This document shows positions 24,088 through 44,324 of a DNA stretch of 48,233 nucleotides, piece by piece. The position numbers and the translations under genes were made by a program. The stretch is from Xanthobacteraceae bacterium (lineage in GTDB: Bacteria > Pseudomonadota > Alphaproteobacteria > Rhizobiales > Xanthobacteraceae), in NCBI GenBank assembly GCA_022841625.1, contig JALHRD010000036.1, positions 1 through 48,233 on the forward strand, given 5' to 3'. Numbering within the stretch: the first letter of the stretch is position 1; the number at the start of each line of letters is the position of its first letter. Under the pieces are notes generated by a model. The model was not told the origin of the DNA. It worked only from the letters and a program-made list of their open reading frames with translations, and did not search any database.

Positions 24088-24112
24088 AACGCAGCTGCGC
24101 CCCATTTGTTCC
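24088..24112 (-). promoter_or_regulatory. EcfG-type promoter of the YNNG-repeat protein gene
   Basis: Minus strand: GGAAC (24108-24112), 16 bases, CGTT (24088-24091). This is an exact match to the GSR consensus, about 80 bases before the start codon. Confidence 0.82.
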
Positions 24113-24494
24113 AAATCGATGAAGTGACAGAATGAGAGGGGCGCGCGTTCGTTTTGATCTGATGAAATTGCCACTCGCGACGGGCGTAACAGGCAATGCC
24201 CACGACCGGTGCGGTCGTGCCTACCGGTCGGCCGAAAGTGCTAGCGCGCCGACTTCAGCAATTACTTTGTTTAAGCCGACGATCGGAAAAAAGTGCACAG
24301 GAAGCTTGGAACCAAGGCGTGCCATTCGAGTTATCATGGCAACCGGCCTAGCCCCCCCCCCCCCCCGCTCGGGCCGGCCTTGATGGGCGTAGTCGCGTTA
24401 GCGACTGCGCCCATCCTTTGTTCCCGTGAGCGATAGCGACAGTCATGCAAACGGCTTGGCTATGCTTCGATTTCACAATTCACAAAGACGATTT
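24113..24494. other. Gene-free gap with poly-C run and hairpin
   Basis: No coding frame is credible. The gap holds a run of 15 C (24352-24366) and the inverted repeat at 24383-24414. Confidence 0.55.
24383..24414. terminator. Hairpin downstream of the HWE kinase gene
   Basis: ATGGGCGTAGTCGC, loop GTTA, GCGACTGCGCCCAT: a 14-bp stem with one G-U pair. It lies 80 bases past the stop of the minus-strand phyR-kinase operon. No T-tract. Confidence 0.5.
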
Positions 24495-25970
24495 TCAGCG
24501 GATGACCGCTAGCTGCTCCTGGGGTAGTAGGACTTTGCAACTCACACCTTCGGCTGGGAACGCCAAGTCGACCTTGGTATCGAGCCCACGACTGAGATAG
24601 CGCTCGATAACCATGCTTCCAAATCCGCGATGCGCGGGCACTTTCACGGCGGGGCCGCCGCTTTCGACCCAATTTAGCTCGACCCCATTGCTGTCTGCCT
24701 CAGGCAGCCGGTGCCATGCAATGGACACCCGACCCTCAGGCACCGATAGAGCGCCGTATTTGGCGGCGTTGGTGGCGAGTTCGTGCAAGGCAAAGCCTAG
24801 ATTTTGCGCCGCGTCAGGCTTGAGCAACACGATTGGGCCTTCAACGGAAACCTGGGATTCGAATCGATCGAGATATGGACCAAGCTGCAAATGCACCAAA
24901 TCGGCAAGCGAGGCACTTTGCCATTGCTCATTGACCAGGACGTCATGCGAAGTCGAGAGCGCCAGCAGGCGCGCGTTGAACTTTTCGAGAAAGCTCTCCG
25001 TTGAGCCCGAGTAGTGCGCGGTTTGTCGCGCCATCGCCTGGATTACGGCGAGCAGGTTTTTCGAGCGATGGGTGAGCTCCCGCATCAAGAAGTGCAATTT
25101 GGCCTCAACCTCCTTGCGCTCCGTGATATCGCGCGCTGCGGCGAACACACCCTGCAGCGCGCTGCCCCGATCATAAAAGGTGGTCGCGTTGTAGGACACC
25201 ACCGTTTCCTTGCCGTCGCGGGCGCGCGCCGTCAATTCATAGTCGGTGACCTTCTTTTCGCTCAGCACGCGCTTGATTCCCGCTTCGGCCCGCTCCGGAT
25301 CGGTGAAAAAGTTCTTGAACGGCGCGCCGATCAATTCGTCGCGCGTGCAGCCGGTAAGCGACTCCATCTGTGTGTTGACGTCCGTGATGATGCCGGAGGG
25401 GTCGGTGGTCATCAGCGCGTCGATGTTGGATTCGATTAGTGATCGGGTATAGAATTGCTGGTCGCGCAGGCGCTGATCGAGCTTTTTTTGCTCGGCTTCG
25501 ACCTGCTTGCGCGCGGTGTTGTCGGTGCCAATCAACAGATAACCGATGATGGCCTCTTGGGCGTCGCGCAGCGCCGTCACCGACACCACCGCCGGGAACC
25601 GGCTGCCATCCTTGCGGATGTAAGTCAGCTCGTAGATGTCCTCGATTCCGCGCGAAGCCTTGAACACCAGGGCCTCGAAGCCCGGCGTGATCAGGGTTTC
25701 GAGTTCGGCGCTGAGCGCTTTAGCGCGCGCGATTACTTCCCGCGGATCGGAAATATCGGCAGGCGTGATCTTGTTCATCACTTCGGCGGCGGTGTAGCCA
25801 AGCATGCGCTCGGCGCCGACATTGAAGATTTGAATGATGCCCTTAGCGTCGGTTGCGATGCTTGAGAAATTGGCGCTATTGAAGATCGCGCGCTGCAGGG
25901 CTTCTGTCTTAAGCGGCTCCGTTTCCTCAAGCTTGCGAGCCGTCACGTTCTTTACATCAGCCGCAATCAC
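24495..25970 (-). CDS. PAS-domain HWE-family sensor histidine kinase
   Basis: 491 aa, with no membrane span, so a cytoplasmic sensor. Two or more PAS domains lie at about residues 25-290 (IIQIFNVGAERMLGYTAAEV; RDITERK between PAS and kinase). The HWE kinase part follows at about 300-490. The phospho-accepting His is in RELTHRSKNLLAVIQ, the N box is HELATNAAKYGAL, and the HWE-typical W-x-E is in LNWVESGGP. Its ATG overlaps the phyR stop (ATGA). HWE/HisKA2 kinases are the class known to phosphorylate PhyR, so this is the likely partner (inference). Confidence 0.93.
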   Translation of the reverse strand: MIAADVKNVTARKLEETEPLKTEALQRAIFNSANFSSIATDAKGIIQIFNVGAERMLGYTAAEVMNKITPADISDPREVIARAKALSAELETLITPGFEALVFKASRGIEDIYELTYIRKDGSRFPAVVSVTALRDAQEAIIGYLLIGTDNTARKQVEAEQKKLDQRLRDQQFYTRSLIESNIDALMTTDPSGIITDVNTQMESLTGCTRDELIGAPFKNFFTDPERAEAGIKRVLSEKKVTDYELTARARDGKETVVSYNATTFYDRGSALQGVFAAARDITERKEVEAKLHFLMRELTHRSKNLLAVIQAMARQTAHYSGSTESFLEKFNARLLALSTSHDVLVNEQWQSASLADLVHLQLGPYLDRFESQVSVEGPIVLLKPDAAQNLGFALHELATNAAKYGALSVPEGRVSIAWHRLPEADSNGVELNWVESGGPAVKVPAHRGFGSMVIERYLSRGLDTKVDLAFPAEGVSCKVLLPQEQLAVIR

Positions 25971-26767
25971 GCCGACACACGGCTTTTACGCTGCCGTGCG
26001 TTGCGTCCAAAGAAAAGCGCCTGGCTTGCGATTGCAGATACCATCGCCGGCTGGAACGGTTTCGAAATCAGGAAGGTCGGCTCAGGGCGTTCTCCAGTCA
26101 GGAGGCGCTCAGGATAGGCGGTAATGAAAATGACCGGAACTTCGAAGGAGCGCAGCAGCTCGTGCACGGCATCCAGACCGGAGCTTCCATCCGCAAGCTG
26201 AATATCAGCTAGAATGAGGCCTGGTGTTTTCGCTTTCGCGAGCTTGATCGCCTCGGCGTGAGTTCTCGCCACGCCGATCACTTGGTGACCGAGATCCTTG
26301 ACCAACGCTTCGAGGTCGAGCGCGATGAACGCCTCATCCTCAATAATCAGCACATCGGTCGCGATTTCGGCGGCAAGCTCGCGCCCGGCCTCCTCGACCA
26401 AGTGTCGCAATTCCGCAACGTCACAGTCCAGAATGCGCGCCGCCGCCTCTTCTCGGAATCCTTCAAGCGCAACGAGCAGGAAGGCCTGACGCGGTAACGG
26501 GGTCAAATTGGCGATCTTTTGTTCGGGCAGGCTGGCTTCATCGAAGCCCACTGCCGTTCCGTTGAGCGAAATCGAGTTCCAAAGCTTGGTGAACAGCCGG
26601 AACAAAGCGACCCGCGTATCGTTATCATCAAGAACCGACTGGTCCTGGATCAGGGCTTCCAATGTGGCAACGACATAGGCGTCTGCGGATGCCTGATGAC
26701 CCGTCAGCGCCCGTGCGTAGCGTCGCAGGATTGGCAAATACTGTTCAACCCGTTCCGATTTTGACAC
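25967..26767 (-). CDS. phyR: Anti-anti-sigma response regulator PhyR
   Basis: 266 aa. The N-terminal sigma-factor-like domain (residues about 1-130: YLPILRRYARALTGHQASAD, LTPLPRQAFLLVALEGF) is joined to a C-terminal receiver (about 138-258: VLIIEDEAFIALDLEAL, phospho-acceptor Asp in LILADIQLADG, Lys in LISKPFQP). In the known mechanism, phosphorylated PhyR binds NepR and frees EcfG. It is divergent from nepR-ecfG and cotranscribed with an HWE kinase. It has its own EcfG promoter (26804-26828), implying positive autoregulation. Confidence 0.97.
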   Translation of the reverse strand: MSKSERVEQYLPILRRYARALTGHQASADAYVVATLEALIQDQSVLDDNDTRVALFRLFTKLWNSISLNGTAVGFDEASLPEQKIANLTPLPRQAFLLVALEGFREEAAARILDCDVAELRHLVEEAGRELAAEIATDVLIIEDEAFIALDLEALVKDLGHQVIGVARTHAEAIKLAKAKTPGLILADIQLADGSSGLDAVHELLRSFEVPVIFITAYPERLLTGERPEPTFLISKPFQPAMVSAIASQALFFGRNARQRKSRVSA

Positions 26768-26803
26768 GAATCCTCCCCTCAGGAAAAAGTGAGCTACTTA
26801 TAG

Positions 26804-26828
26804 AACGCCTGAAACCAGAAAAAGTTCC
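26804..26828 (-). promoter_or_regulatory. EcfG-type promoter of phyR
   Basis: Minus strand: GGAAC (26824-26828), 16 bases, CGTT (26804-26807). Exact consensus, 37 bases before the phyR start. Confidence 0.88.
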
Positions 26829-26840
26829 GCGCCGATTGAG

Positions 26841-26865
26841 GGAACTATTGTCCGGGTTCTCCGTT
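26841..26865 (+). promoter_or_regulatory. EcfG-type promoter of nepR-ecfG
   Basis: GGAAC (26841-26845), 16 bases, CGTT (26862-26865). Exact consensus, 65 bases before the nepR ATG. Its -35 box lies only 12 bases from the -35 box of the divergent phyR promoter. Confidence 0.88.
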
Positions 26866-26929
26866 ATAGTCGTACGCTAAAAGTGTGCAGATTGACGAAT
26901 TTGCATGGTTTATCAAAGGATTAATCCAA

Positions 26930-27145
26930 ATGAAAGGGCGAAAACCGGGCAAAGCCGGTCAGCAAAAGATGAATATTGCAGACGCCCCTCCATACGGTAG
27001 CGGAACGCTTGGCAGCGATGTCCAGGACGTCATCGGCAAGCAATTGCGGGCCATGTACGACGATCTGGTCAATCAGACCGTGCCGGATCGTTTCAAGGAA
27101 TTGCTGCAAGAGCTCAATAAACGGAAGAATAAAGGAAAATCTTGA
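26930..27145 (+). CDS. nepR: Anti-sigma factor NepR
   Basis: 71 aa from ATG 26930 (AAGGA about 9 bases upstream). The NepR core is visible: DVQDVIGKQLRAMYDDLV followed by VPDRFKELLQELNK, the two helices that clamp EcfG or, when displaced, PhyR. A basic N-terminus (MKGRKPGKAGQQK) and a basic tail are typical. Its stop shares a base with the ecfG start (TGATG), so synthesis of sigma and anti-sigma is coupled. Confidence 0.95.
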   Translation: MKGRKPGKAGQQKMNIADAPPYGSGTLGSDVQDVIGKQLRAMYDDLVNQTVPDRFKELLQELNKRKNKGKS

Positions 27146-27696
27146 TGGGCATCGAGGCGTCGATGCAAGACAAAATTCTTGCGACGCTGCCACGCCTTCG
27201 TGCGTTCGCTATCTCATTGTCTGGGAAAGTCGACCGTGCGGACGACCTCGTCCAAGAAACTCTGGTTCGCGCGTTCACGAACATCAACTCATTCCAGCCG
27301 GGGACCAACCTCCAGGCTTGGCTGTTCACCATCCTGCGCAACCAGTTTCGATCGGAATATCGCAAGCGGCGCCATGAGGTTGAAGACGTTGACGGCCGCT
27401 TTGCCGAGAACCTGACCACACCTCCGGAACAGCAAAGCCGCTTGGAATTCGAGGAGTTCCGGCAGGCGCTGACCGAACTCCCGCTCGACCAGCGGGAAGC
27501 TCTGATCCTGGTCGGTGCATCCGGATTTTCCTACGAGCAAGCCGCACAGATCTGCGACTGCGCCATCGGCACCATCAAAAGCCGTGTCAATCGCGCGCGC
27601 GCTCGACTGGCCGAAATTCTGTCAATCGAGAGTGCGGACGACTTTGGTCCGGATGGTGACATGCAAGCGGCTGTAGCGAGCGCAAGAAGTCGCTGA
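27145..27696 (+). CDS. ecfG: General stress response sigma factor EcfG
   Basis: 183 aa ECF sigma of the EcfG group. Region 2 covers about residues 10-80 (RADDLVQETLVRAFTNINSF, LQAWLFTILRNQFRSEYRKR) and region 4 about 105-160 (LPLDQREALILVGASGFSYE, GTIKSRVNRARARL). EcfG directs RNA polymerase to GGAAC-N16/17-CGTT promoters under osmotic, oxidative, heat and starvation stress. ATG 27145 is coupled to nepR; the frame also opens at TTG 27142. At least eight matching promoters lie in this window. Confidence 0.97.
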   Translation: MGIEASMQDKILATLPRLRAFAISLSGKVDRADDLVQETLVRAFTNINSFQPGTNLQAWLFTILRNQFRSEYRKRRHEVEDVDGRFAENLTTPPEQQSRLEFEEFRQALTELPLDQREALILVGASGFSYEQAAQICDCAIGTIKSRVNRARARLAEILSIESADDFGPDGDMQAAVASARSR

Positions 27697-27754
27697 CAAA
27701 GCAATTTGGATTGACAAGCGAACATTCACTTGCAGCTTGGTCACCTTTCTCGAT

Positions 27755-27779
27755 GGAACCTATTTTTCCGGCATTCGTT
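27755..27779 (+). promoter_or_regulatory. EcfG-type promoter downstream of ecfG
   Basis: GGAAC (27755-27759), 16 bases, CGTT (27776-27779). Exact consensus, 50 bases before the ATG of a 58-aa ORF. Confidence 0.85.
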
Positions 27780-27829
27780 GTGCTGACAGCGCCGGTCTCA
27801 GGTTAGCTTTCATCCAATAAGGAATGGAC

Positions 27830-28006
27830 ATGGACAGAATGGAAACGGACCGATTCGTCTGTGATCGGAATCTGGAAAAGTTTCGAAGGCTTGCGTGCGC
27901 CGCCAATACCGGGGCGGAGCGAGAAATACTTATCGGTCTGTTGGCGGAGGAAGAAGACAAATACTTGAGCTGCAGAAGGCTGAAACCGATCCATTCGGAG
28001 GCGTGA
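27830..28006 (+). CDS. 58-aa hypothetical protein under an EcfG promoter
   Basis: Start ATG 27830 has AAGGA 6 bases upstream; in-frame ATGs at 27824 and 27839 are less well spaced. The protein is charged and helical: FVCDRNLEKFRRLACAAN, then EREILIGLLAEEEDKYLSC. It resembles short Rhizobiales proteins with a (V/L)ERFR-x-LL...LLAEEE pattern, probably a helical hairpin. There is no signal or membrane span. Its position after ecfG with its own EcfG promoter makes it a likely GSR member; the function is unknown. Confidence 0.75.
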   Translation: MDRMETDRFVCDRNLEKFRRLACAANTGAEREILIGLLAEEEDKYLSCRRLKPIHSEA

Positions 28007-28220
28007 GATAATCGCCATCAAGACCGCAACTGCCGCAACCGCAGTGATGCAGATCTGCTCGTAGCAGGGGCCAACCGCTCTGTGACCATGCAACTCCCTT
28101 CACCAGCGCAGGAAGACGGTCACGCTCGGCGGAGCATAGTACCAATAATCAAGTTCGGCGCGAGGTCAAATTTGGTCAATTGCTCGACCACATGTCGCCT
28201 TGCTTTGCTATCTGGTTGCC

Positions 28221-28334
28221 TCAGAACCGCAAGATTCGACCGACGATCCAAGCGGCAACCGCCCAGCCGGCGCCGGTGAAGAAGCCTACGCAGAACCAAA
28301 CACCTATTTGGTAAAGGCTGATGATAGACGGCAT
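28221..28334 (-). CDS. 37-aa membrane peptide
   Basis: ATG 28334 follows AGGAGA at 7 bases. The sequence starts MPSIISLYQIGVWFCVGFFT and continues GAGWAVAAWIVGRILRF: two short hydrophobic segments joined by a glycine turn, with a basic C-terminus. It is likely inserted in the inner membrane. The function is unknown, but the intact frame, good ribosome site and hydrophobic pattern support a real gene. Confidence 0.65.
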   Translation of the reverse strand: MPSIISLYQIGVWFCVGFFTGAGWAVAAWIVGRILRF

Positions 28335-28478
28335 GATAGATTCTCCTGATGTGACAAAGCGGAAAACTGACGACGCCCTTTAACCGAGCATTGAACCGCG
28401 TCGCACTCGACTATGAGGGCCTTGATCGGCACCTTCCGGATCACACCCTATTAAGGGCACCATTCAGGAACTGCCGGG

Positions 28479-28601
28479 TTACTTTTTCTCGATGAAAATG
28501 CCGCTCTTGCCGACATTGATCTGGATGCCGGTGGTCTTGTCCTCGGCTATCCGCGGATCAAGCCGCTTGGATTCGATGGGACAGAGATTGGCGGTGGGCA
28601 C
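28479..28601 (-). pseudogene. Truncated paralogue of the 48-aa protein (cassette A)
   Basis: The last 20 residues, DKTTGIQINVGKSGIFIEKK, match QKTTGIEINIGKGGISIEKR of the intact protein at 37758-37904. The N-terminal membrane anchor is gone, replaced by unrelated sequence starting at GTG 28601 with a weak site. Similarity continues about 90 bases beyond the stop. Most likely a decayed copy. Confidence 0.65.
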
Positions 28602-28603
28602 TC

Positions 28604-28768
28604 CTAAAGCTTGCCGAGCAAAACCAAGACCAACACGATAACGAGTACGAGGCCGAGCCCGCCGCCGCCGTAGTAACCGGTCCCATAGAAAGGACCGCCC
28701 CCCAAGCCGCTAAAACCCCCAAGTAACGCGATGATCAAGATGATGAGCAGGATGGTTCCGAGCGACAC
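28604..28768 (-). CDS. DUF3309 family small membrane protein (copy A)
   Basis: 54 aa starting at GTG 28768: SLGTILLIILIIALLGGFSG, a Gly/Tyr-rich loop (GGGPFYGTGYYGGGG), then a second hydrophobic span (LVLVIVLVLVLLGKL). This is the standard DUF3309 layout. The GTG start with only a weak GAGAT site suggests low expression. A paralogue with ATG and a strong site is at 37185-37349. Confidence 0.82.
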   Translation of the reverse strand: MSLGTILLIILIIALLGGFSGLGGGPFYGTGYYGGGGLGLVLVIVLVLVLLGKL

Positions 28769-28893
28769 GGCATTATCTCATTGGTTGGGATGTGAACATC
28801 ACTCGTCCGAGCAGCGGTAAAGCCGCATCTGCGGGACGCACTTTGATAATTAGTAATTGCTCCGACCACTGATGTCTGAGCAAAATTGCACAC

Positions 28894-28998
28894 TTTCGCC
28901 GTGAGCGCGTCTGTCGGGCCGCCAATGGCGTTCTGAACCTTGCCCTTCATTTTGTCGGTCACGCCACATGCCGCAACTTCAACCGCAAAAGTTTTCAT
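28894..28998 (-). pseudogene. CsbD-family remnant
   Basis: The frame from ATG 28998 contains TDKMKGKVQNAIGGPTDALT, matching KADKVEGKVQNAIGGFKDTV of the intact CsbD proteins at 37429 and 42269. The first half of the protein and the end are unrelated, so only a core segment survives. Confidence 0.65.
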
Positions 28999-29034
28999 GA
29001 TAATTGACTGCTTACGCTTCAGATATCCGCAGCA

Positions 29035-29066
29035 CAGACGTAGAAAGACGTAGAAAGACGTAGAAA
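29035..29066. repeat. 10-bp tandem repeats in the leader of the Crp/Fnr gene
   Basis: The unit GACGTAGAAA is present three times in a row (with the start near 29037), ending in GTAGAAAGGAG. The last copy supplies the ribosome binding site of the gene at 29079. Confidence 0.9.
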
Positions 29067-29078
29067 GGAGAGCCATTC

Positions 29079-29756
29079 GTGGCGGTCAAACGCAAAAAAC
29101 TATTTGATCCGAAAGCATTTCTCGCCAAGATCGGCGAGGGCCGGAGCATCGATAAATACCGCAAGGGCCAGATCGTCTTTTCGCAGGGCGAGCCTGCGGA
29201 CGCGGTCTTTTACATCCAGAAAGGCAAGGTGAAGGTCACCGTCGTTTCGGAACAGGGCAAGGAAGCCGTCGTCGCAATTTTGGGAACGGATGAATTCTTT
29301 GGCGAAGGATGTCTCGCCGCGCAGACGCAGCGCATCGCGAATGTTACGTCCATGACGGACGCTATCATCATGCGCCTGGAGAAAGCGGCAGTTGTCCACG
29401 TGATCCAACAGGAACCGGCGTTCTCCGAGTTGTTTATTGCCCGTCTTCTCAGTCGGACCATCCGCGTTGAAGCGGACCTCGTCGACCAGCTGTTTAATTC
29501 GAGTGAGAAACGTCTCGCGCGCTTGCTCCTGCTGTTGGCGAATTTTGGCCAAGAAGGGCCGCCGGCACCGCTGATCGCAAAAATTAGCCAGGAGACGCTT
29601 GCGGAAATGATTGGAACGACCCGGTCGCGCGTGAGTTTCTTCATGAACAAATTTCGCAAACTAGGCTTCATCCACTACAACGGCGGCATCGAAGTCCACA
29701 GGTCATTGCTGAATGTCGTTCTGCACGACACGCCGCAGATCAAGACCAAGACCTGA
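29079..29756 (+). CDS. Crp/Fnr family transcriptional regulator
   Basis: 225 aa with a GTG start; GAAAGGAG lies 8 bases upstream. The cyclic-nucleotide-binding-like domain (residues about 20-135: YRKGQIVFSQGEPADAVFYI, LGTDEFFGEGCL) is followed by a long helix and a winged helix-turn-helix (about 165-215: ISQETLAEMIGTTRSRVSFF, RKLGFIHYNGGIEVH). No N-terminal FNR cysteine cluster is present, so it is not an oxygen-sensing FNR. Relatives in Bradyrhizobium sit in similar stress regions. The effector is unknown. Confidence 0.94.
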   Translation: MAVKRKKLFDPKAFLAKIGEGRSIDKYRKGQIVFSQGEPADAVFYIQKGKVKVTVVSEQGKEAVVAILGTDEFFGEGCLAAQTQRIANVTSMTDAIIMRLEKAAVVHVIQQEPAFSELFIARLLSRTIRVEADLVDQLFNSSEKRLARLLLLLANFGQEGPPAPLIAKISQETLAEMIGTTRSRVSFFMNKFRKLGFIHYNGGIEVHRSLLNVVLHDTPQIKTKT

Positions 29757-30077
29757 ATCAACTCATTTTGCTGTGATGGCGCGGTCAAGGTGCAGAGTCC
29801 GATCTAATAAAGTTAGCAAGGCGCGGATTGCGATGATCGCTGGTGAGCGATTTTATCCGGCCACCGCTTGGTCGCGGAACTGTGCCTGACAACAAGTAAG
29901 CATCTTCGCTACCTAAACGAGGCGACGGTCGCAATGGGACAGCACTAAACTCGCATACGCGGGCAGCATTTTTATCTCCTAAAGTGAGCAATTTTGCACA
30001 GCTTAAACCCTGGCAAGCGCATAGCGTCGCGCATATCCGGTGGCGAAAATACGTCTCCCAGAAGTTGGAGTGTGACA
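29757..30077. other. Gap of about 320 bp without a gene
   Basis: Nothing recognisable. Frames on both strands lack family signatures, and no EcfG or clear housekeeping promoter boxes were found. Confidence 0.45.
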
Positions 30078-30308
30078 ATGGAGATTCTTATTCAAGCGGT
30101 CGCGCAGCTGGAAAAACTGATAGTTCAAGCCCAATTGGGCGACGATAGGAGTGTCTTGCAGGGCCTGATGGACGCCCAAGATTGCTTGCTTGAACAAATC
30201 TGGCCCGCGGCCAATCAGGCGGATAACGATGAAGTCTGTTCCCACGAAGAGTTTGATCCGGTCGACTCAACGACGCATGACACACGAACGAAGATAACAA
30301 TAAGCTGA
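30078..30308 (+). CDS. 76-aa hypothetical protein
   Basis: ATG 30078 with TTGGAG about 9 bases upstream. It is acidic and soluble: EILIQAVAQLEKLIVQAQLG, then a polar tail rich in Asp and Thr. The N-terminal half should form a helix or short coiled coil. No family is recognised, so coding status rests on the start site and composition. Confidence 0.5.
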   Translation: MEILIQAVAQLEKLIVQAQLGDDRSVLQGLMDAQDCLLEQIWPAANQADNDEVCSHEEFDPVDSTTHDTRTKITIS

Positions 30309-30356
30309 CGTCCTGTTTTTCGAGATCAGACCGCCAAGAAGCTTGACGGGTCTTGC

Positions 30357-30375
30357 AGGGAGCGACTTTCGCTCC
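30357..30375. terminator. Short hairpin
   Basis: GGGAGCGA, loop CTT, TCGCTCCC, about 50 bases beyond the stop of the 76-aa gene. No T-tract. Confidence 0.4.
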
Positions 30376-30603
30376 CATCGGAATGTTCGCGCCCGCTCCG
30401 CCGATATTGTCGATGCACCAGTTTTTGGCGGATTGTCGCTTTTGACCTCGATCAAAACGACCTGGGCTGTCGTTCGGTATGGTTTCCACGAGAAGCGGGG
30501 CTGTCCGCAGCTTATCATTGTAGTCGCAGTGGTTATCTTGGCTTTAGATGGACCGATCTCCGCGTCTAACGTTGCTTTGTGCCAGTAACTCCAGGAGGCG
30601 TTC

Positions 30604-31443: not shown

Positions 31444-31448
31444 CAAGG

Positions 31449-31485: not shown

Positions 31486-31549
31486 GCATTAGACGATCAC
31501 GTTTGCCCGGTCCCAACGAATGGCTGTCGAAGACGAAAGACGGGCGAGC

Positions 31550-37092: not shown

Positions 37093-37184
37093 ACCCCCGA
37101 GGTAACCTCCCGATATACTTTTCGCTGGCGGTGTGCCGCTACAATGAGTCGTGAAACTTTCAGTGCGGCGCTCCGCCTGTCAGA

Positions 37185-37349: not shown

Positions 37350-37428
37350 GGCTTATCTCCTTTTGGCAGAACTTAATTGGCCACAGTGCCGCTCCAGAAT
37401 CTCCTGGAGACTCGAACGGCTGCGACGC

Positions 37429-37614
37429 CTATTTCCTTTTGAACATATCTTTGACCGTGTCTTTGAAGCCTCCGATGGCGTTCTGAACCTTGCCCTCGAC
37501 CTTGTCGGCCTTACCCTCCGATTCCAGCTTCGCGTCACCAACCGCTTTGCCGACCGCCTGCTTGACGGCACCTTTGACTTGTTTCGCCGATCCGGCGACC
37601 CGGTCTTTATCCAT
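37429..37614 (-). CDS. CsbD family stress protein
   Basis: 61 aa: MDKDRVAGSAKQVKGAVKQ, KLESEGKADKVEGKVQNAIG, then FKDTVKDMFKRK. Typical CsbD, a small charged helical protein induced in stress. GGAGGAAG lies 8 bases before ATG 37614. No exact EcfG promoter is visible directly upstream. Near-identical to the copy at 42269-42457. Confidence 0.95.
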   Translation of the reverse strand: MDKDRVAGSAKQVKGAVKQAVGKAVGDAKLESEGKADKVEGKVQNAIGGFKDTVKDMFKRK

Positions 37615-37715
37615 GATTTCTTCCTCCAATACCCAACCCCTGAACGGGAAGGGAAACCGATGATGAACGTTGAGCTTCTATGCACTCCGACTGTGAAGCA
37701 CTTGATTGGCATTTT

Positions 37716-37746
37716 CCGGATGACGCTTTATTACAGCGCAATCCGG
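37716..37746. other. Hairpin in a DNA segment shared with 28436-28470
   Basis: CCGGAT-GACGCT, loop TTATTAC, AGCGCA-ATCCGG between the 48-aa and CsbD genes. A related segment follows the truncated copy in cassette A (CCGGATCACACCCT ATTA AGGG). There the inner stem CCCT/AGGG replaces CGCT/AGCG, a compensatory change. Confidence 0.4.
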
Positions 37747-37757
37747 GAATTACAGGA

Positions 37758-37904
37758 CTACCTTTTCTCGATGGAAATGCCGCCTTTACCGATGTTGATC
37801 TCGATGCCAGTGGTCTTCTGCCGTTCCTGGTAGAGTTGATACCCGAAGACCGCGGAGGCGACGGCAAGCACGGCGATTACGAGGTAAAGGACGTTGCGAT
37901 TCAT
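37758..37904 (-). CDS. 48-aa membrane-anchored protein
   Basis: MNRNVLYLVIAVLAVASAVF forms a membrane anchor. It is followed by GYQLYQERQK and a soluble end TTGIEINIGKGGISIEKR. This compact layout is widespread in Rhizobiales genomes. ATG 37904 overlaps the stop of the upstream 71-codon ORF (ATGA). The conserved C-terminal tail recurs in the broken copy at 28479-28601. Function unknown. Confidence 0.82.
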   Translation of the reverse strand: MNRNVLYLVIAVLAVASAVFGYQLYQERQKTTGIEINIGKGGISIEKR

Positions 37905-38116
37905 GATTTGACGGACTCCGTCTCAATTTCCAACTGCGCGCGGTTCCAGTGCCACCTTGACTCGTCATGACTGCCGGTCACCGCTTCGAAAAATGCTCCG
38001 GGTGTGCCTGCATGAGCCAGTGGCCGTGGTTCTGCGATAGCTGAGCCGATCCGCAGCAGTGCCCTCGCAACGCTCGGGGCATTCGCGGGCTTCAGTACCA
38101 CCGACTGGAAATTCAT
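37901..38116 (-). CDS. 71-aa hypothetical protein coupled to the 48-aa gene
   Basis: ATG 38116 has GGGGGG about 6 bases upstream, and the stop overlaps the next ATG by ATGA. The sequence (SVVLKPANAPSVARALLRIG, SHDESRWHWNRAQLEIE) shows no signal or membrane span. The frame position supports translation, but no family is recognised. Confidence 0.45.
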   Translation of the reverse strand: MNFQSVVLKPANAPSVARALLRIGSAIAEPRPLAHAGTPGAFFEAVTGSHDESRWHWNRAQLEIETESVKS

Positions 38117-38134
38117 GACGTGCCCCCCTATGCA

Positions 38135-38287
38135 CTACAGTACAGGGATAAGTCTTTGCGACGGCGAATGTTCCAGATAACTGTATTGAATTTGAACAAA
38201 TAAGCATTTGAGATGGCTCAAAGACGCCGTCGGGCGGCTGGCCAAAGCTTTGGAACAGTAAGCGGCCACCAATAGGGTGTTTTTCAT
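38135..38287 (-). CDS. Possible 50-aa ORF, perhaps a truncated secreted protein
   Basis: GGAGGG lies 6 bases before ATG 38287 and the frame begins MKNTLLVAAYCSKALA, like the start of a signal peptide. The rest is unremarkable and stops after 50 codons. Weak case. Confidence 0.25.
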   Translation of the reverse strand: MKNTLLVAAYCSKALASRPTASLSHLKCLFVQIQYSYLEHSPSQRLIPVL

Positions 38288-38399
38288 TTGTATCCCTCCA
38301 ATTTGGCACACTTCCTGCTCTCGGTCTGCTATTGGTATTATTGGAAGGAACGGTAGGCAGCGGGCATTCCGCTGTTTTTTGACCTAGGGCGCGTTAGTT

Positions 38400-39347
38400 A
38401 TGTCTTGGTGGCGGCAAGGTATCCGGTCTCGCGCGTTCGCGTATGGTGCCGCTGCGGCAATGTCTGTTGTCGCCACGGCCGTGCCTTTGACCTTCGGGCT
38501 GTTCGGCGTCCACACTCTGTTTTTCACCCCATATTTTCCTGCCATCTTGTTCGCGACACTGCTCGGCGGAGTCGGGCCCGGCGTTGTCGCCCTCGTGCTT
38601 GGCATCGGCTTTGAGTGGTGGGCCTTCCTGCTTCCAAGTTCTTTCGGATTTGCAGCACCAAACCTAGGCCAGATGCTGCACCTCGCGTTGTATGTCATCG
38701 CGGCCTCATTCGTGATCTGGATCGCCGAAGATTATCGACGTCTTCTGGCTGTCAGCCGGGGCGAGGAAGCGCGCCGGCACCTTTATCTCGGTGAGCTTCA
38801 ACACCGAATCCGCAACATGATGGCCGTCGTGCAGTCGATCGTCAGCCAGGCGCTCCGCGGGAACAAGGACGCTATAGAAAGAATCAACGGCCGGATCGCT
38901 GCGCTCGTTGCAACCAACGACCTCCTCACCCGATCGGAAGAGCAGACTGCCGATCTCAAGGACATTGTCTTGGCGGAGCTGGAGCCGCATGGATCGACAC
39001 GCATTTCGCTGCAAGGCGATACGCACTCGCTTCCTTCAAACCTCGCCGTGGCGTTTGCGCTTGTCATTCATGAACTAGCAACCAATGCCGTCAAGCACGG
39101 CGCGCTCTCGCAAACTCAGGGGAAAGTCGTTGTCACGTGGCGGATCGAAAGAGACCGCCGCCTGGTGCTCGAATGGGTCGAAAGCGGCGGCCCCCCGGTT
39201 ACAGCGCCGGTGCATCAAGGACTCGGAACGCCCCTCATTGCGCGGCTGGTCAGCAGTTTGGACGGCGAAATTACCAACGACTTTCGGCCATCCGGATTGG
39301 CGTGCCGGATCGCATTCGATATTCCGAAACCGCGCGGCCAGCATTGA
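38400..39347 (+). CDS. Membrane HWE-family histidine kinase with DUF4118-like sensor
   Basis: 315 aa. Three to four N-terminal spans of the KdpD/DUF4118 kind (VPLTFGLFGVHTLFFTPYFP, LFATLLGGVGPGVVALVLGI) occupy residues about 15-110. The HWE kinase follows: His in GELQHRIRNMMAVVQSIV, N box HELATNAVKHGAL, W-x-E in LEWVESGGPPV. It could be a second input to PhyR, since this kinase class serves the GSR (inference). No response regulator gene is adjacent. Confidence 0.92.
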   Translation: MSWWRQGIRSRAFAYGAAAAMSVVATAVPLTFGLFGVHTLFFTPYFPAILFATLLGGVGPGVVALVLGIGFEWWAFLLPSSFGFAAPNLGQMLHLALYVIAASFVIWIAEDYRRLLAVSRGEEARRHLYLGELQHRIRNMMAVVQSIVSQALRGNKDAIERINGRIAALVATNDLLTRSEEQTADLKDIVLAELEPHGSTRISLQGDTHSLPSNLAVAFALVIHELATNAVKHGALSQTQGKVVVTWRIERDRRLVLEWVESGGPPVTAPVHQGLGTPLIARLVSSLDGEITNDFRPSGLACRIAFDIPKPRGQH

Positions 39348-39384
39348 AATTATCGGGGTCGGCGCGATCTCATGCGCACTCGGG

Positions 39385-41169
39385 TTAACCGGCCTGGAAC
39401 GGCCAAAACACCGCGATCAGCGGGACACCGACGAGCACCACCATGATCGAGAGCGGCAAGCCCAGCCGCCAATAGTCGCCGAATCGGTAACCTCCCGGCC
39501 CCATCACCAGCGTGTTACATTGGTGGCCAATCGGCGTGAGAAAATCGCAAGCGGCTCCAATCGCCACCGCCATCAGAAAGGCATCCGGTCCATAGCCAAG
39601 CTTGCTGGCAAAGCCCGCCGCGATCGGTGCCATCACCAGAACGGTCGCTGCGTTGTTGAGAAACGGCGTCACCGCCATCGCGGCGATCATGACAAGGCCA
39701 AGTGCTCCGACCGGAGGCAGCAGATTGCCGGCGCTCGACAACCAGCCAGCAATAAGCTCAGTGCCCCCCGTAGTGCGCAGTGCATCGCTGATCGGGATTA
39801 GCGCTCCTAGCATGATAAGGATTGGCCATTCGATCGAGTCGTAGGCTTCCCGCAGCGTCATGGCTCGTATCAACAACATCGCGACGGCAGCACCGAAAAA
39901 CGCGGTCGCCACTGGAACAAGATGTAAACTGACCGCAATCATGGCGACGACCAGCACCAGCAGAGGAAAAATACTGTGCCGTCCGGCGCCGAGACGAAGG
40001 TCGCGCGCCGCCAGCGGGAGGCAACGCAACTCGCCAAGCGTCTCCGGCATGGTGTTAAGGTTGCCTTGCAGCACGAGCACATCGCCTGGCTTGAGCTGGA
40101 CGGACCGCATCTGACGCGTAATCCGCGAACCTCGGCGGCCGACCGCCAAAAGATTCACCTGATAACGCTGGTAGAGTCGCAACTGCGCCGGTGTGCGATC
40201 GACAAGCACCGAATCCGAAGAGATTACCGCCTCCATCACGCCGATATCGTCCTGTGGTGTATCGATCGCGAGCTCTTCTTTGTCGCGCACAAGCTTCAGC
40301 GCGGCTTGGCCAACGACGCGCTCCAGCGCTTCAGGCTCGCCTTCGAGCAGCAGGATGTCGTTGGCCTTGAAGCCGGCACTATCCGGCGGATCATAACGTC
40401 GCACATGATTACGCAGAATCATGAGCACATCGACTTCATTCTCAAATAAGTTTTTTATTTCCCCAACGGTTTTGCCGACGATGGAAGAGTTTTCTGTGAC
40501 CAGAACTTCGGTCGTGTATCCTTCAAAGTCGAAGGCGGCATCCATCGGCGCCTGTCCCTTGCGATCTTGCGGCAGAAGCCGATATCCGACGCTCAGGAAC
40601 AGCACACCGACGACTGCCAACGTGATCCCAACATAGGCAAAGTCGAACATGCCAAATGGCTGGCCAGTGAGCTCTTGGCGCACTCGCGAGACAATGATAT
40701 TGGGCGACGTCCCGATCAGGGTGACAATTCCGCCGAGCAACGAACCGAATGCCATGGGCATAAGGAGCGCAGACACCGGTTTATTGTTGCGCCGAGCGAT
40801 CTGAAAAGCGACCGGCATCATCATGGCCAGCGCGCCAATGTTCTTGACGAAGGCAGAGAGCACCGTCACCGTCGCGGTGAGCACAACGACCTGCACACCG
40901 GTTTGCGTCAGGTACGGACCAAGCGGCCGGATCGCGCGTTCGATGATGCCGGATCGCGCAACAGCTCCGCTCACCAGCAGCGCGCTCGCAACGATGATCA
41001 CGATGTCGTCGGAGAATCCCGAAAATGCCTTGTCGTGAGGCACGATGCCCACAACGATCGCAACGAACAAGCCAACCAATGCAACCAGATCATAACGCAG
41101 TTTCCCCCAAGCGAACATCGCCATCATGGCGAACAGGATGCCGAACGCGAGAGCCTGGGGAAGAGTCAT
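39385..41169 (-). CDS. SLC13-family permease with two RCK_C domains
   Basis: 594 aa from ATG 41169 (AGAGGTG upstream; the open frame reaches 41334 without similarity). The N-terminal anion-transporter half (LRYDLVALVGLFVAIVVGIV, FSDDIVIIVASALLVSGAVA, FVKNIGALAMMMPVAFQIAR) is followed by two TrkA-C/RCK_C modules at about 210-370 (TEVLVTENSSIVGKTVGEIK; VMEAVISSDSVLVDRTPAQL) and a C-terminal transporter half (GADFLTPIGHQCN-like loop). The family moves dicarboxylates, sulfate or related anions with sodium. The substrate is unknown. Confidence 0.93.
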   Translation of the reverse strand: MTLPQALAFGILFAMMAMFAWGKLRYDLVALVGLFVAIVVGIVPHDKAFSGFSDDIVIIVASALLVSGAVARSGIIERAIRPLGPYLTQTGVQVVVLTATVTVLSAFVKNIGALAMMMPVAFQIARRNNKPVSALLMPMAFGSLLGGIVTLIGTSPNIIVSRVRQELTGQPFGMFDFAYVGITLAVVGVLFLSVGYRLLPQDRKGQAPMDAAFDFEGYTTEVLVTENSSIVGKTVGEIKNLFENEVDVLMILRNHVRRYDPPDSAGFKANDILLLEGEPEALERVVGQAALKLVRDKEELAIDTPQDDIGVMEAVISSDSVLVDRTPAQLRLYQRYQVNLLAVGRRGSRITRQMRSVQLKPGDVLVLQGNLNTMPETLGELRCLPLAARDLRLGAGRHSIFPLLVLVVAMIAVSLHLVPVATAFFGAAVAMLLIRAMTLREAYDSIEWPILIMLGALIPISDALRTTGGTELIAGWLSSAGNLLPPVGALGLVMIAAMAVTPFLNNAATVLVMAPIAAGFASKLGYGPDAFLMAVAIGAACDFLTPIGHQCNTLVMGPGGYRFGDYWRLGLPLSIMVVLVGVPLIAVFWPFQAG

Positions 41170-41352
41170 CGGGACACCTCTAGGGCCGCGTACCAGTGAC
41201 CAGAGCAAGCGCGAAAAACCGAAAGTTCCGTGCTTTCGCGCTTCGCTGCAATCGGTGAGCGGGCGCCTGACCGAACAGGTTGGTTCTAGTTTGCGGGCAT
41301 GCCCGATCATAGGACAAACTCCGACGCCGCCCACTCGAAAATGAACTGGTAT

Positions 41353-41378
41353 GGAACCTACCCGGCTCCTTGCCCGTT
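41353..41378 (+). promoter_or_regulatory. EcfG-type promoter of sodB
   Basis: GGAAC (41353-41357), 17 bases, CGTT (41375-41378), 56 bases before the sodB start codon. Confidence 0.82.
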
Positions 41379-41433
41379 ATCTCGTTGCGTCGGTTCATAA
41401 CCCTGCAACTGTTGCTTCCCGAGGAGGAGTTCG

Positions 41434-42036
41434 ATGACATTTTCGCTGCCGGAGCTGCCCTATTCTCATGATGCTCTCGCCCCCTACATGTCGCGCGAGA
41501 CGATCGAGTATCATCACGGCAAGCATCACCTCGCCTACGTCAACAACGGCAACAACCTGCTGAAGGGTACCGAGTGGGAGAACAGGCCGTTGGAGGACAT
41601 TGTGAAGGGCTCGCACGGCAAAAACGCCGGCCTCTTCAACAATGCGGGCCAGCACTACAACCACCTGCACTTCTGGAACTGGATGAAGCCGGGCGGCGGC
41701 GGAGACAAGATTCCGGGAATTCTTGAAAAAACGATCGCTGCGGATCTGGGCTCGGTCGCCAAGATGAAAGAAGCCTTCGTCCAGGCCGGCGTTGCTCAGT
41801 TCGGCTCAGGCTGGTGCTGGCTGGCGCTCAAAGACGGCAAAATCGTTGTGACTTCGACCGCAAACGGAGAAAATCCTCTGGTGCATGGGGCAAGACCGAT
41901 TCTCGGCTGCGACGTGTGGGAGCACTCCTACTACATTGATTACCGCAATCGCCGGCCGGAATATCTCACGGCCTTTGTCGATCACTTGATTAATTGGGAC
42001 TATGTCGCCGACCTGTTCGAGGCGGCGAAACCATAG
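41434..42036 (+). CDS. sodB: Superoxide dismutase, Fe/Mn family
   Basis: 200 aa cytoplasmic enzyme converting superoxide to hydrogen peroxide and oxygen. Metal ligands are visible: first His in ETIEYHHGKHHLAYV, second His in NNAGQHYNHLHFW, Asp and His in CDVWEHSYYIDYRN. GSGWCWLAL and the Gln in AQFGSGW fit the Fe-type or cambialistic group. GAGGAG lies 6 bases before the ATG. The EcfG promoter places it in the general stress regulon. Confidence 0.97.
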   Translation: MTFSLPELPYSHDALAPYMSRETIEYHHGKHHLAYVNNGNNLLKGTEWENRPLEDIVKGSHGKNAGLFNNAGQHYNHLHFWNWMKPGGGGDKIPGILEKTIAADLGSVAKMKEAFVQAGVAQFGSGWCWLALKDGKIVVTSTANGENPLVHGARPILGCDVWEHSYYIDYRNRRPEYLTAFVDHLINWDYVADLFEAAKP

Positions 42037-42120
42037 CCGATGAGCAAGCGCAGCCCACGTTCAGCCGCCCAAGGGCCGAGAGCCATGATTGCCTCTGAAT
42101 TGTTGTTTGCGATCGACGAT

Positions 42121-42204
42121 TCAACTAAGTCCGCCGAAAAGCCAAACCAATAGAATTATCGGAAGAGGAATGCCGATCAGCCACAACAATGCACCGCGTC
42201 CCAT
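42121..42204 (-). CDS. 27-aa membrane peptide, copy 1
   Basis: MGRGALLWLIGIPLPIILLV then WLFGGLS. ATG 42204 has TAGGAG 7 bases upstream. One hydrophobic helix with a proline-containing GIPLPI core. A paralogue with 19 of 27 identical residues is at 43365-43448. Conservation between the two copies at protein level argues that both are translated. Confidence 0.75.
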   Translation of the reverse strand: MGRGALLWLIGIPLPIILLVWLFGGLS

Positions 42205-42268
42205 TGCAGTCTCCTATTTCTGTCTGAAATGTAACGAACTCAAGCAACCTTTCGAACGGTAAAGACGT

Positions 42269-42457
42269 CTATTTTTTCCTTTTGAGCATATCTTTGATCG
42301 TGTCTTTGAAACCGCCGATGGCGTTCAGAGCTTGGCCCTCAACCTTGTCGGCCTTGCCTTCCGATTCCAGCTTGGCGTCACCGGCCGCTTTACCGACCGC
42401 CTGTTTGATTGCACCGTTGACTTGCTTCGCCGATCTGGCGACTCGATCCATGTCCAT
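42269..42457 (-). CDS. CsbD family stress protein (second copy)
   Basis: 62 aa: MDMDRVARSAKQVNGAIKQ, KLESEGKADKVEGQALNAIG, FKDTIKDMLKRKK. GGAGGAAG precedes ATG 42457, with the same leader sequence as the copy at 37429-37614. A third, broken copy is at 28894-28998. Confidence 0.95.
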   Translation of the reverse strand: MDMDRVARSAKQVNGAIKQAVGKAAGDAKLESEGKADKVEGQALNAIGGFKDTIKDMLKRKK

Positions 42458-42581
42458 GATTTCTTCCTCCAATACCCAGCTCCTAAAAGGGAGAGGCGGG
42501 CGACGACGCTTGGGCACTGGTCGAACCACTGATCTAGTGATCAATCGGTGCAACCGCCCACGCCTAAACTCTAAGCAAACT

Positions 42582-42621
42582 GAGAGCGCCTTCCGGTGAC
42601 GTCGTTCCGGAAAGCGCTCTC
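42582..42621. terminator. Terminator-like hairpin behind the PRC-barrel gene
   Basis: GAGAGCGCCTTCCGG, 10-base loop, CCGGAAAGCGCTCTC: 15-bp arms with one mismatch, 14 bases beyond the stop of the minus-strand gene. Confidence 0.7.
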
Positions 42622-42635
42622 AACGAATGCAGAGC

Positions 42636-43139
42636 TTACCTCACTGAAGGCGTCGCTCGTCCGGTCGTCGCCGGTGTCTCCGGCATCCATACCATGGTGG
42701 AACGGTCGTACTTGAACGCCGATGCGCTGTTCAGCGCCTCCTTGGTCGAGTTCATGACCAGGTGCCATTTGTTACCATCTCGGGTCGTGACCCGTACTGC
42801 ATTGTAGGGCACGGCAACGTGCCTCTCGCCGATCCCGAGGAAGCCGCCGACGCCGATAACAAGCGCGACGATCCTGGCTTCGCTATCCACCAGCACATCG
42901 TCGATCTCGCCGATTCGGTTGTTGGACTGATCGTAGACCGGCTGCTTATGCCAGTGCGTGATCGTTGTGGCGTTAGCCGGAATGCTCGTCAGCATTTGCA
43001 CCGCGGATGTCGCCGCGGGCGCCGCCTGCGGCATCGATTTTGGTGCCGGCTGGGATGGCGGCGCGGGTGGTATCGTCTGAGCGCCGGCGATGGTAGTCGC
43101 AAACGCCAGCAGGATTGCGGTTGAGGCGAGTGTACGCAT
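42636..43139 (-). CDS. Secreted PRC-barrel domain protein
   Basis: 167 aa, ATG 43139 with AGGAAAG upstream. The signal peptide (STAILLAFATTIAGAQ) is followed by a Pro/Ala-rich linker and a PRC-barrel at about residues 60-140 (HWHKQPVYDQSNNRIGEIDD, ARIVALVIGVGGFLGIGERH, VAVPYNAVRV). Such exported PRC-barrel proteins are common stress proteins in Rhizobiales. An exact EcfG promoter stands 48 bases upstream. The ligand is unknown. Confidence 0.9.
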   Translation of the reverse strand: MRTLASTAILLAFATTIAGAQTIPPAPPSQPAPKSMPQAAPAATSAVQMLTSIPANATTITHWHKQPVYDQSNNRIGEIDDVLVDSEARIVALVIGVGGFLGIGERHVAVPYNAVRVTTRDGNKWHLVMNSTKEALNSASAFKYDRSTMVWMPETPATTGRATPSVR

Positions 43140-43186
43140 GATTATCTTTCCTGTTTGCAGGGATGATAAATTCATCCACCACAGGA

Positions 43187-43211
43187 AACGCGACGAGCGA
43201 TTGGAAGTTCC
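43187..43211 (-). promoter_or_regulatory. EcfG-type promoter of the PRC-barrel gene
   Basis: Minus strand: GGAAC (43207-43211), 16 bases, CGTT (43187-43190). Exact consensus. Confidence 0.85.
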
Positions 43212-43364
43212 CGTGACGCGGCAAAATTGTTTCTGTGCCTCCGGGTCAACAAGTTGATTGCATTCAAATTGCCAATGTGCGCGGCAGGCAACACCGCGTA
43301 CGCCCCCCCCTGAACACAGCGCATGCGCGGCAAGCGAGCGGTCGCCAATGCATATCTGCGATTC

Positions 43365-43448
43365 TCAGCTCAAAACGCCGAAAGCCCAGAGCAATAGAAC
43401 GATCGGAATTGGAATTCCGATCAACCATAGCAAGAGACCTTTGCCCAA
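43365..43448 (-). CDS. 27-aa membrane peptide, copy 2 (TTG start)
   Basis: Reads (M)GKGLLLWLIGIPIPIVLLL then WAFGVLS, start TTG 43448 with TAGGAG 6 bases upstream; an in-frame stop just before excludes a longer form. It matches the peptide at 42121-42204 in length, stop position and GIPxPI core. Confidence 0.7.
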   Translation of the reverse strand: MGKGLLLWLIGIPIPIVLLLWAFGVLS

Positions 43449-43503
43449 AGCGCGCTCCTATGCCCTGCGAAAAGCCGGTATCCTCAATCAGACGCGACGG
43501 CGG

Positions 43504-44100
43504 TTATGCCGCCTTGACCAACTCGGCAAGCCGCTTGCGCGCGTAAAACATGCGCGTCTTCACGGTCGGCACTGAAATACCGACAAGATTGGCAACCTCT
43601 TTCACCGATTTGTCCTGATAGTAAACGAGATCAATAATCTGCCCGTGCTTGGGTGAAAGCTTAACGAGGCAGCGGCGAATAAATCTGTTTCTGTCATTAT
43701 CCTGCAACGCGATTTCAGGATCATCCGATTGGTCTACGACCAGCTGGGCAGATTCGACGTCCAGCACAACCTCTTTGCGGCAGCGCAGCTCCGACATGGC
43801 TTTTAGCCGGGCAATTGCCATAAGCCAAGTCGAGACCGTCGCCCGTGCCTCATACCCGGCGGCAGCCCGGCGCCAAACATCAAGAAAGACCTCGCTGACT
43901 AAGTCTTCTGACGTAGAATCGTTTCGCACAAATCGCTGGATGAATTTGTGCACGCCGACTCGATGCCGGGAGAAAAGTATGCGCATCGCGAGGGTATCGC
44001 CCCGTGCAATTCTCCCGATCAGTTGTTCATCCGATAACGTTTCAGCCTGGCCAACCCATGCCGACGATTCGGCGACAGCGATCATAATGACCTCATTCAT
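43504..44100 (-). CDS. ECF-type RNA polymerase sigma factor
   Basis: 198 aa. Region 2 at about residues 30-95 (LIGRIARGDTLAMRILFSRH, LVSEVFLDVWRRAAAGYEAR, STWLMAIARLKAM) and region 4 at about 135-190 (LVKLSPKHGQIIDLVYYQDK, VKEVANLVGISVPTVKTRMF). It differs from EcfG in region 2.4 and 4.2, so it should read another promoter. No anti-sigma gene follows or precedes it, unlike most RpoE-like factors. Confidence 0.92.
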   Translation of the reverse strand: MNEVIMIAVAESSAWVGQAETLSDEQLIGRIARGDTLAMRILFSRHRVGVHKFIQRFVRNDSTSEDLVSEVFLDVWRRAAAGYEARATVSTWLMAIARLKAMSELRCRKEVVLDVESAQLVVDQSDDPEIALQDNDRNRFIRRCLVKLSPKHGQIIDLVYYQDKSVKEVANLVGISVPTVKTRMFYARKRLAELVKAA

Positions 44101-44299
44101 CCACCATTTACCAAGATAAGCTTTGACGCCTGAAAAGGTTCCGCGCGTTCAAACGTGACGTTCCAATACGGCCATGGCGCGTTTGGTTGCTTCGAACAAC
44201 CGTCCGGGCTCTGTGCTATTGCCGCATACTTTGCGGGAGCCGGCAGAGGGTGACGTTCGCCGCTTCGCGAACGTTTCTGCGGGAATGAAGTCAAACATT

Positions 44300-44324
44300 G
44301 GAACTTCCAACCAAAGTAGGCGTT
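44300..44324 (+). promoter_or_regulatory. EcfG-type promoter of a 94-aa secreted protein gene
   Basis: GGAAC (44300-44304), 16 bases, CGTT (44321-44324). Exact consensus, 36 bases before the ATG. Confidence 0.85.

Follow-up and report, generated by a model that had tools for sequence, protein, structure and literature searches.

An EcfG general stress response locus in a Xanthobacteraceae genome, away from its ancestral position and apparently amid almost its entire recognisable regulon

The stretch of DNA analysed here (the window) is an entire contig, C36, of 48,233 bases from the draft genome of a Xanthobacteraceae bacterium (4,900,319 bases in 71 contigs), which we refer to as G000; its congeners, of the same genus, are G001–G007. 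The window contains a PhyR–NepR–EcfG general stress response (GSR) module; in this family a kinase phosphorylates PhyR, and PhyR binds NepR and frees the sigma factor EcfG. Judged from the sequence, the cluster of EcfG sites around this module appears to be nearly the whole recognisable EcfG regulon of G000, located at a site that is not ancestral. We consider it probable that the window holds a complete module amid its own regulon and that this arrangement arose through loss of the native locus and arrival of a new one. We advance more tentatively, as somewhat short of an even chance, a wider interpretation: the lineage lost its GSR and regained a self-contained regulator with a local regulon, and the Hyphomicrobiales sigma gene gathers targets, so that the response may be exchanged, already wired, among genomes and plasmids alike.

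The module and its EcfG sites

The regulatory genes of the module are as follows.
24495..25970, minus strand: HWE-family histidine kinase with PAS domains, adjoining phyR (Pfam HWE_HK 6e-26, PAS_9 4e-28)
25967..26767, minus strand: phyR, sigma-mimic response regulator (Pfam PhyR_sigma2, PhyR_sigma-like, Response_reg)
26930..27145, plus strand: nepR, anti-sigma factor (Pfam NepR 3e-14)
27145..27696, plus strand: ecfG, sigma factor (Pfam Sigma70_r2, Sigma70_r4_2; profile scan on 27142-27696)

The nepR gene lies upstream of ecfG and overlaps it, base 27145 being common to the nepR stop codon and the ecfG ATG. All the features expected of an EcfG system are present, namely EcfG regions 2 and 4, NepR, PhyR, and consensus promoters at both phyR and nepR-ecfG. 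PhyR carries sigma-like and receiver domains, and residue D188 of the receiver, which we take to be the phosphorylated residue, is invariant in 21 sequences. Neither a second close EcfG nor a second close PhyR was found in a search of the G000 genome. The next EcfG match (40% identical) was rejected as a second EcfG; it is followed by an unrelated anti-sigma-like gene (named by eye) and not by nepR.

We searched for exact matches to the strict pattern GGAAC-N16/17-CGTT and found ten in the window, compared with 0.95 expected from shuffled sequences; none of 100 shuffles attained ten.
24088..24112, minus strand: EcfG-type promoter before a YNNG-repeat secreted protein (23670-24008), exact site, 79 bases to ATG
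26599..26623, plus strand: exact match within phyR, on the opposite strand
26804..26828, minus strand: EcfG-type promoter of phyR, exact site, 36 bases to GTG
26841..26865, plus strand: EcfG-type promoter of nepR-ecfG, exact site, 64 bases to ATG 26930
27755..27779, plus strand: EcfG-type promoter before a 58-amino acid open reading frame (ORF; 27830-28006), exact site, 50 bases to ATG, ORF uncalled by the coding model
33300..33325, minus strand: EcfG-type promoter before orf109 and DUF3096 (33239 down to 32753), exact site, 60 bases to ATG, DUF3096 Pfam 2e-14
33425..33450, minus strand: second EcfG-type promoter before the orf109/DUF3096 pair, exact site, 185 bases to ATG
41353..41378, plus strand: EcfG-type promoter of sodB (41434-42036), exact site, 55 bases to ATG, Pfam Sod_Fe_N and Sod_Fe_C
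43187..43211, minus strand: EcfG-type promoter of a secreted PRC-barrel protein (42636-43139), exact site, 47 bases to ATG, Pfam PRC 7e-13
44300..44324, plus strand: EcfG-type promoter before a small cysteine-containing secreted protein (94 amino acids, 44360-44644), exact site, 35 bases to ATG, ORF uncalled

Nine of the ten sites are intergenic and face an ORF, at 35–79 bases (last T to start codon) or, for the second DUF3096-pair site, 185. The original prediction had named eight exact sites upstream of genes, and all eight are present, intergenic and oriented towards their ORF, with measured distances of 35–79 bases to the start; its list left out the second DUF3096-pair site and the antisense site inside phyR, the latter most likely a chance match. 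In an automatic promoter test seven of the ten sites passed, two faced uncalled ORFs and one was genic.

The clustering with the sigma gene, also claimed in that prediction, proved real in a genome-wide search. G000 contains 86 strict sites, of which 76 lie on the other contigs (the other 4.85 Mb) at a density about 13-fold lower than in the window, which excludes the equal density that had been named beforehand as refuting the claim. From the other contigs, 0.76 sites are expected per 48-kb window against 10 seen (Poisson 8e-9), and 0.32 against 10 (2e-12) in the 20.2 kb from 24088 to 44324, a stretch bounded by its own sites. A backwards-read control pattern gave 155 matches genome-wide; the genome total of strict sites is therefore not above chance, and it is this contig that stands out.

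All 76 other sites were classified from the surrounding DNA. Two are promoter-like, preceding ribosomal L10-like and TctC-like genes (names by eye), 12 are intergenic without a called start in reach, and 62 are genic; an earlier and looser promoter rule had given 4 of 76. Under the identical rule 12 of 30 sites were promoter-like in G001 and 12 of 30 in G003 (Fisher 2e-8 against 2 of 76), the samples being the first 30 sites in contig order out of 157 and 151, respectively. The recognisable EcfG regulon of G000 therefore appears to be nearly confined to the stress region. Degenerate promoters elsewhere in G000 were considered and set aside: five relaxed −10/−35 motif classes were tried in 397 kb of G000 and few matches preceded genes (1, 1, 1, 2 and 0), a permuted control being run for the first class only (GGAAC-DGTT, 1 site against a control mean of 0.75).

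By the proposed mechanism, the stress-sensing HWE kinase would phosphorylate PhyR, and PhyR~P would take NepR from EcfG. EcfG would then transcribe phyR and nepR-ecfG, giving positive feedback, and would act through seven further sites on the neighbouring genes for superoxide dismutase (SOD), the PRC-barrel protein, orf109-DUF3096 (two sites) and the YNNG secreted protein, and on two doubtful small ORFs. We infer this control of the neighbouring genes from the placement of the sites.

The arrangement resembles that of the alphaproteobacterial GSR locus (PhyR–NepR–EcfG, ECF15), described as having divergent phyR and nepR-ecfG, a kinase beside phyR, EcfG promoters at both units, and autoregulation (PMC8103513). 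The window shares the divergent units, the phyR-adjacent kinase and the promoters at both units. Unlike that locus, it has another seven consensus sites, all oriented, in a stretch of 20 kb, with hardly any in the rest of the genome, and it does not occupy the position used by five congeners.

Position and divergence of the stress locus

The stress locus of G001 and G003 is flanked by a VOC-type gene on one side and an ornithine-cyclodeaminase-like gene on the other and contains a kinase, a small secreted protein, CsbD, DUF883-like, phyR, nepR, ecfG and DUF1328-like genes (small-family names partly by eye). The phyR gene shares a contig with the cyclodeaminase-like gene in G002, G005 and G006, and the two are on separate contigs in G007. 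In G004 the cyclodeaminase-like gene was not found at E 1e-120, and its usual next neighbour lies near ecfG. In G000 the VOC-type and cyclodeaminase-like genes are adjacent, with 13 bp between them, and around this junction the congeners' order is retained by six genes to one side and 19 to the other, a count that takes in these two, mostly at 71–91% identity, with a few genes present in G003 only. Two parts of the window are distinguished here.
1104..15148: native chromosomal block (M23, TctC, ClpB, MOSC, MetW, MetX, chorismate mutase, HisC, TyrA, QPCT, DUF2125; several names by eye)
17700..48233, no strand: stress region, AT-richer and gene-sparser, extending to the contig end

The native block is collinear with the congeners at 70–93% identity, in full in G001 and from MetW to DUF2125 in G003, whose contig stops there. 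In G001 and G003 DUF2125 is followed by ChaC-, PlsC- and FtsX-like genes (named by eye), with no GSR genes in the stretch fetched, so the stress region is absent there; in G000 these three genes lie on contig C7. Since the VOC-type and cyclodeaminase-like genes stand 13 bp apart in G000, and the collinear left block is followed by other genes past DUF2125 in the congeners, the G000 stress region has a new position and its former one lies vacant. The composition of the region also deviates from that of the flanking native DNA, as is looked for in an island: GC content is 0.568 and coding share 0.63 in 17700..48233, against 0.619 and 0.86 at 1-17700 (coding share from our own gene model, which misses small ORFs), and GC drops at about 17.6 kb.

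The regulators themselves are divergent. PhyR of G000 is 73% identical to that of G003 and 71% to that of G001, whereas G001 and G003 share 92%; the closest PhyR among the relatives searched, at 77%, belongs to another genus, and among the matches listed for 397 genomes sampled from the order none outside G000 itself is above 72%. The kinase adjoining phyR aligns with the GSR kinase of G001 and G003 along less than half its length, at only 34% identity, and its best matches among the 102 loci compared are in other genera. When probed with G003's GSR neighbours, the G000 stress region gave matches only for the kinase and a CsbD (38%). In a PhyR+EcfG tree (49 rows, three of them without EcfG, and using 21 of 80 named loci described below), all seven congeners group together (100/96) and G000 falls outside them, with the genus of the 77% PhyR match (94/81, not starred); in a TyrA tree G000 groups with G001 and G003 (100/99). 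On these comparisons transfer of the stress region into G000 is likely, though short of proven.

EcfG sites around phyR in relatives and on plasmids

To place the cluster among its relatives, we searched 40 genomes, of which 29 had a full or strong partial PhyR match, and fetched 22 PhyR regions. An EcfG homologue is present in 21 of these. Every one of the 22 regions exceeds the site number expected from its genome rate, 19 of them at P < 0.05 uncorrected, the counts including the autoregulatory phyR and nepR sites and the genome sizes being rounded; the highest counts come from G010, with 11 strict sites over 22 kb, and G025, with 10 over 40 kb. Uniqueness of the cluster is thereby excluded. 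The statement in the original prediction that GSR targets are normally scattered is thus half right, since EcfG sites also crowd phyR and ecfG in these relatives and in the 80 loci below, mostly beside genes different from those of the window. A conserved stress island was likewise rejected for most of the region: in the 22 regions little recurs of the window's gene content other than the kinases, phyR, nepR, ecfG and the second sigma factor. In one of these regions (G010, L125-L126), one of the 11 strict sites precedes a GCS2-like enzyme that is 49% identical to the enzyme at 33741-34853 of the window.

A second sample comprised 80 named PhyR loci, each taken with flanks of at most 10 kb, and 60 permuted motifs as controls; the loci are related and do not amount to 80 independent cases. 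At distances of 0–0.5, 0.5–1.5, 1.5–3, 3–5, 5–7.5 and 7.5–10 kb, promoter-like sites numbered 94, 28, 39, 29, 27 and 10, compared with control means of 0.5, 0.35, 0.22, 0.35, 0.17 and 0.32, and in each bin they exceeded the largest of the 60 control motifs. At least one promoter-like site occurs beyond 0.5 kb in 52 of the 80 loci (none in 28) and beyond 1.5 kb in 44 (none in 36); among non-Bradyrhizobium name labels, 18 of 29 have a site beyond 1.5 kb. Site density in the 54 loci outside Bradyrhizobium drops from 63 to 0.6 per 100 kb as the distance to the core grows. When the 80 loci were pooled with 23 regions, one of them the window and with at least three genomes represented in both sets, 316 targets fell into 66 clusters, which include phyR and nepR. 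Recurrent small families, named by eye, are DUF883, DUF1328, holin-like, CsbD and PRC, and many clusters are confined to a single lineage. Where window genes recur among the 80 loci, identity is mostly low.

The Bradyrhizobium/Afipia GSR neighbourhood (among loci L170-L207) comes close to the window in gene content. There, relatives of the window's holin-X-like, DUF883-like, AI-2E, DUF3309, DUF2865 and CsbD genes adjoin phyR, and relatives of the 44806..47800 block genes lie beside phyR in mirrored order. Unlike in the window, where this block is 17–20 kb from ecfG, they are about 1–9 kb from phyR, and the neighbour identities are about 24–51%.

Of 72,556 plasmid records, 35 hold a PhyR homologue (E up to 1e-20); three of these were inspected for sites. 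Dinoroseobacter shibae pDSHI02 and plasmid unnamed4 of Rhodobacteraceae S2214 resemble the window in carrying kinase-ecfG-nepR-phyR, Dps, DUF1328, Crp/Fnr and local EcfG-type sites, and the S2214 plasmid also has AI-2E, CsbD and holin genes; in contrast to the window, both clusters are on replicons and belong to Rhodobacterales. pDSHI02 has six strict sites in 20.8 kb, four of them before phyR, nepR, Dps and DUF1328 and two before no listed gene. Unlike the window, the S2214 plasmid has no strict CGTT site; it has five GGAAC-N16/17-NGTT sites, each 28–60 bases before the kinase, DUF1328, PLD-like small protein, AI-2E or CsbD gene, with −10 boxes AGTT (4) or GGTT (1). This Rhodobacteraceae plasmid (L367, CP081165.1) is 78 kb long and holds a full GSR locus with Dps, DUF1328, AI-2E, CsbD and Crp, its −10 boxes being mostly of the AGTT type. 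The pattern was not seen on the S. parapaucimobilis plasmid (no strict and two relaxed sites). An EcfG sigma gene on an accessory replicon is also known from the Rhizobium etli plasmid ecfG2 (PMC8103513); that gene is an extra copy beside a chromosomal system, whereas the window carries the sole system with its regulon.

Origin of the locus and further features

By the history that we favour, the native stress locus of the lineage would have disappeared and left a clean junction behind, while scattered target promoters decayed or vanished; a foreign or strongly diverged stress module would have arrived elsewhere, bringing along sufficient targets to be of immediate use. The earlier suggestion that the region may move as a unit fits this history and gains indirect support from the empty ancestral site in a largely collinear stretch, the divergent regulator, the different kinase, the low GC content and the plasmid examples, but no integrase, transposase or tRNA was seen. 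Several observations weigh against the favoured history or against confinement of the regulon. An approximately unbiased (AU) test does not reject trees in which G000 is forced together with G001 and G003 (p 0.073) or with all seven congeners (p 0.098). The G000 branch is long (end branch 0.65), and the tree came with long-branch warnings. In the TyrA tree the remaining congeners stand apart, and the genus does not hold together there either. There is no tRNA in the window, and no integrase or transposase scored above the cut-off in 40 ORFs scanned, 37 of them in the region, att repeats not having been searched; the right end of the stress region lies beyond the contig, and these features of mobile elements can be judged for its visible part only. 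The congener site samples are partial, and the promoter-like sites found there need not all be genuine, several of the 12 in G003 preceding genes without an evident stress role. The ORFs of 58 amino acids at 27830 and 94 amino acids at 44360 lack coding-model support. A strict consensus overlooks degenerate promoters; for Sphingopyxis, flexible −10 boxes are reported (PMC7083833). Finally, the 26 Bradyrhizobium loci show no drop in site density within 10 kb, staying near 8–13 per 100 kb from 1.5 to 10 kb.

Some of these points are what would be expected had the native locus moved to another place on the chromosome and afterwards evolved rapidly with its regulon reduced, no foreign DNA being needed. 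The monophyly with congeners left unrejected by the AU test and the long end branch agree with relocation, which we nevertheless regard as unlikely: the weak and partial match of the adjacent kinase to its G001/G003 counterpart and its better matches in other genera, the failure of all but two G003 neighbour probes, a GC content and coding density unlike the native block, and a closest PhyR in another genus all speak against it. A chimeric contig, in which bases 1 to about 17.7 kb belong to G000, a species without an EcfG system, and the stress region to another organism, would account at once for the missing native locus, the missing scattered promoters, the GC drop and the divergent PhyR. 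Tetranucleotide correlation with native DNA is indeed 0.85–0.88 in the region against 0.895–0.957 in left windows; these values are above those of the ten lowest G000 loci, but stretches from other families score alike, and the comparison favours neither reading. G000 is listed as 99.99% complete with 0.58% contamination, and 17.4–35.4 kb has no match to other G000 DNA that could mislead an assembler (0.45 Mb compared), and we hold a chimera to be improbable. It would also be conceivable that the window is an ordinary GSR neighbourhood, with G000 at the high end of the relatives and its scattered promoters degenerate rather than absent. The excess of sites in all 22 relatives' regions, up to the counts in G010 and G025, is in keeping with this. 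A frequency of relaxed GGAAC-DGTT sites before genes no higher than in the permuted control across 397 kb of G000, together with the low counts in the other four classes, which had no control of their own, a promoter-like share elsewhere of 40% in two congeners against 3% in G000, and the absence of the locus from its ancestral site leave this explanation little probability.

Transfer of a global regulator is generally considered difficult, its targets being scattered across the genome. If, as the relatives would suggest, targets generally gather beside ecfG, regulator and core regulon would be inherited or transferred together. A sigma factor with its core regulon within about 10–20 kb, combined with a nearly confined regulon, offers a testable case for loss, regain and exchange of a global stress response, and suggests that target genes can travel, or be substituted, together with their regulator. 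EcfG-site density as a function of distance from ecfG also provides a quantitative handle on regulon growth by proximity. A literature search, incomplete for subscription papers, showed among the titles and abstract openings listed no report of local EcfG-site enrichment around ecfG or of GSR-locus replacement; we make no claim that these are unpublished.

Several further features of the stress region were noted. A second HWE kinase, with a DUF4118 domain, is encoded at 38400-39347 and is a possible further input to PhyR. A second extracytoplasmic function (ECF) sigma factor (43504-44100) is 26% identical to EcfG; no anti-sigma factor was noticed beside it, and none was searched for. A gene-poor stretch bordering the native block contains an acetate-kinase fragment (18705-19166; Pfam 3e-7, profile positions 2-79 of 392). 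Towards the right end lies one more group of genes.
44806..47800, no strand: block of DUF2865, AI-2E transporter, DUF883-like (by eye, no Pfam match) and holin-X-like (Pfam under cut-off) genes

A fragment of a phage terminase small subunit (47949-48233; Pfam Terminase_4, 6e-24) runs off the right contig end, and a prophage or prophage remnant may border the stress region on that side. No strict EcfG site precedes the CsbD or DUF3309 gene pairs of the region. These two alike CsbD genes and two alike DUF3309 genes (37185-37614, 42269-42457 and 28604-28768) suggest duplication within the region, and the only two CsbD matches in the entire G000 genome are both inside the window.

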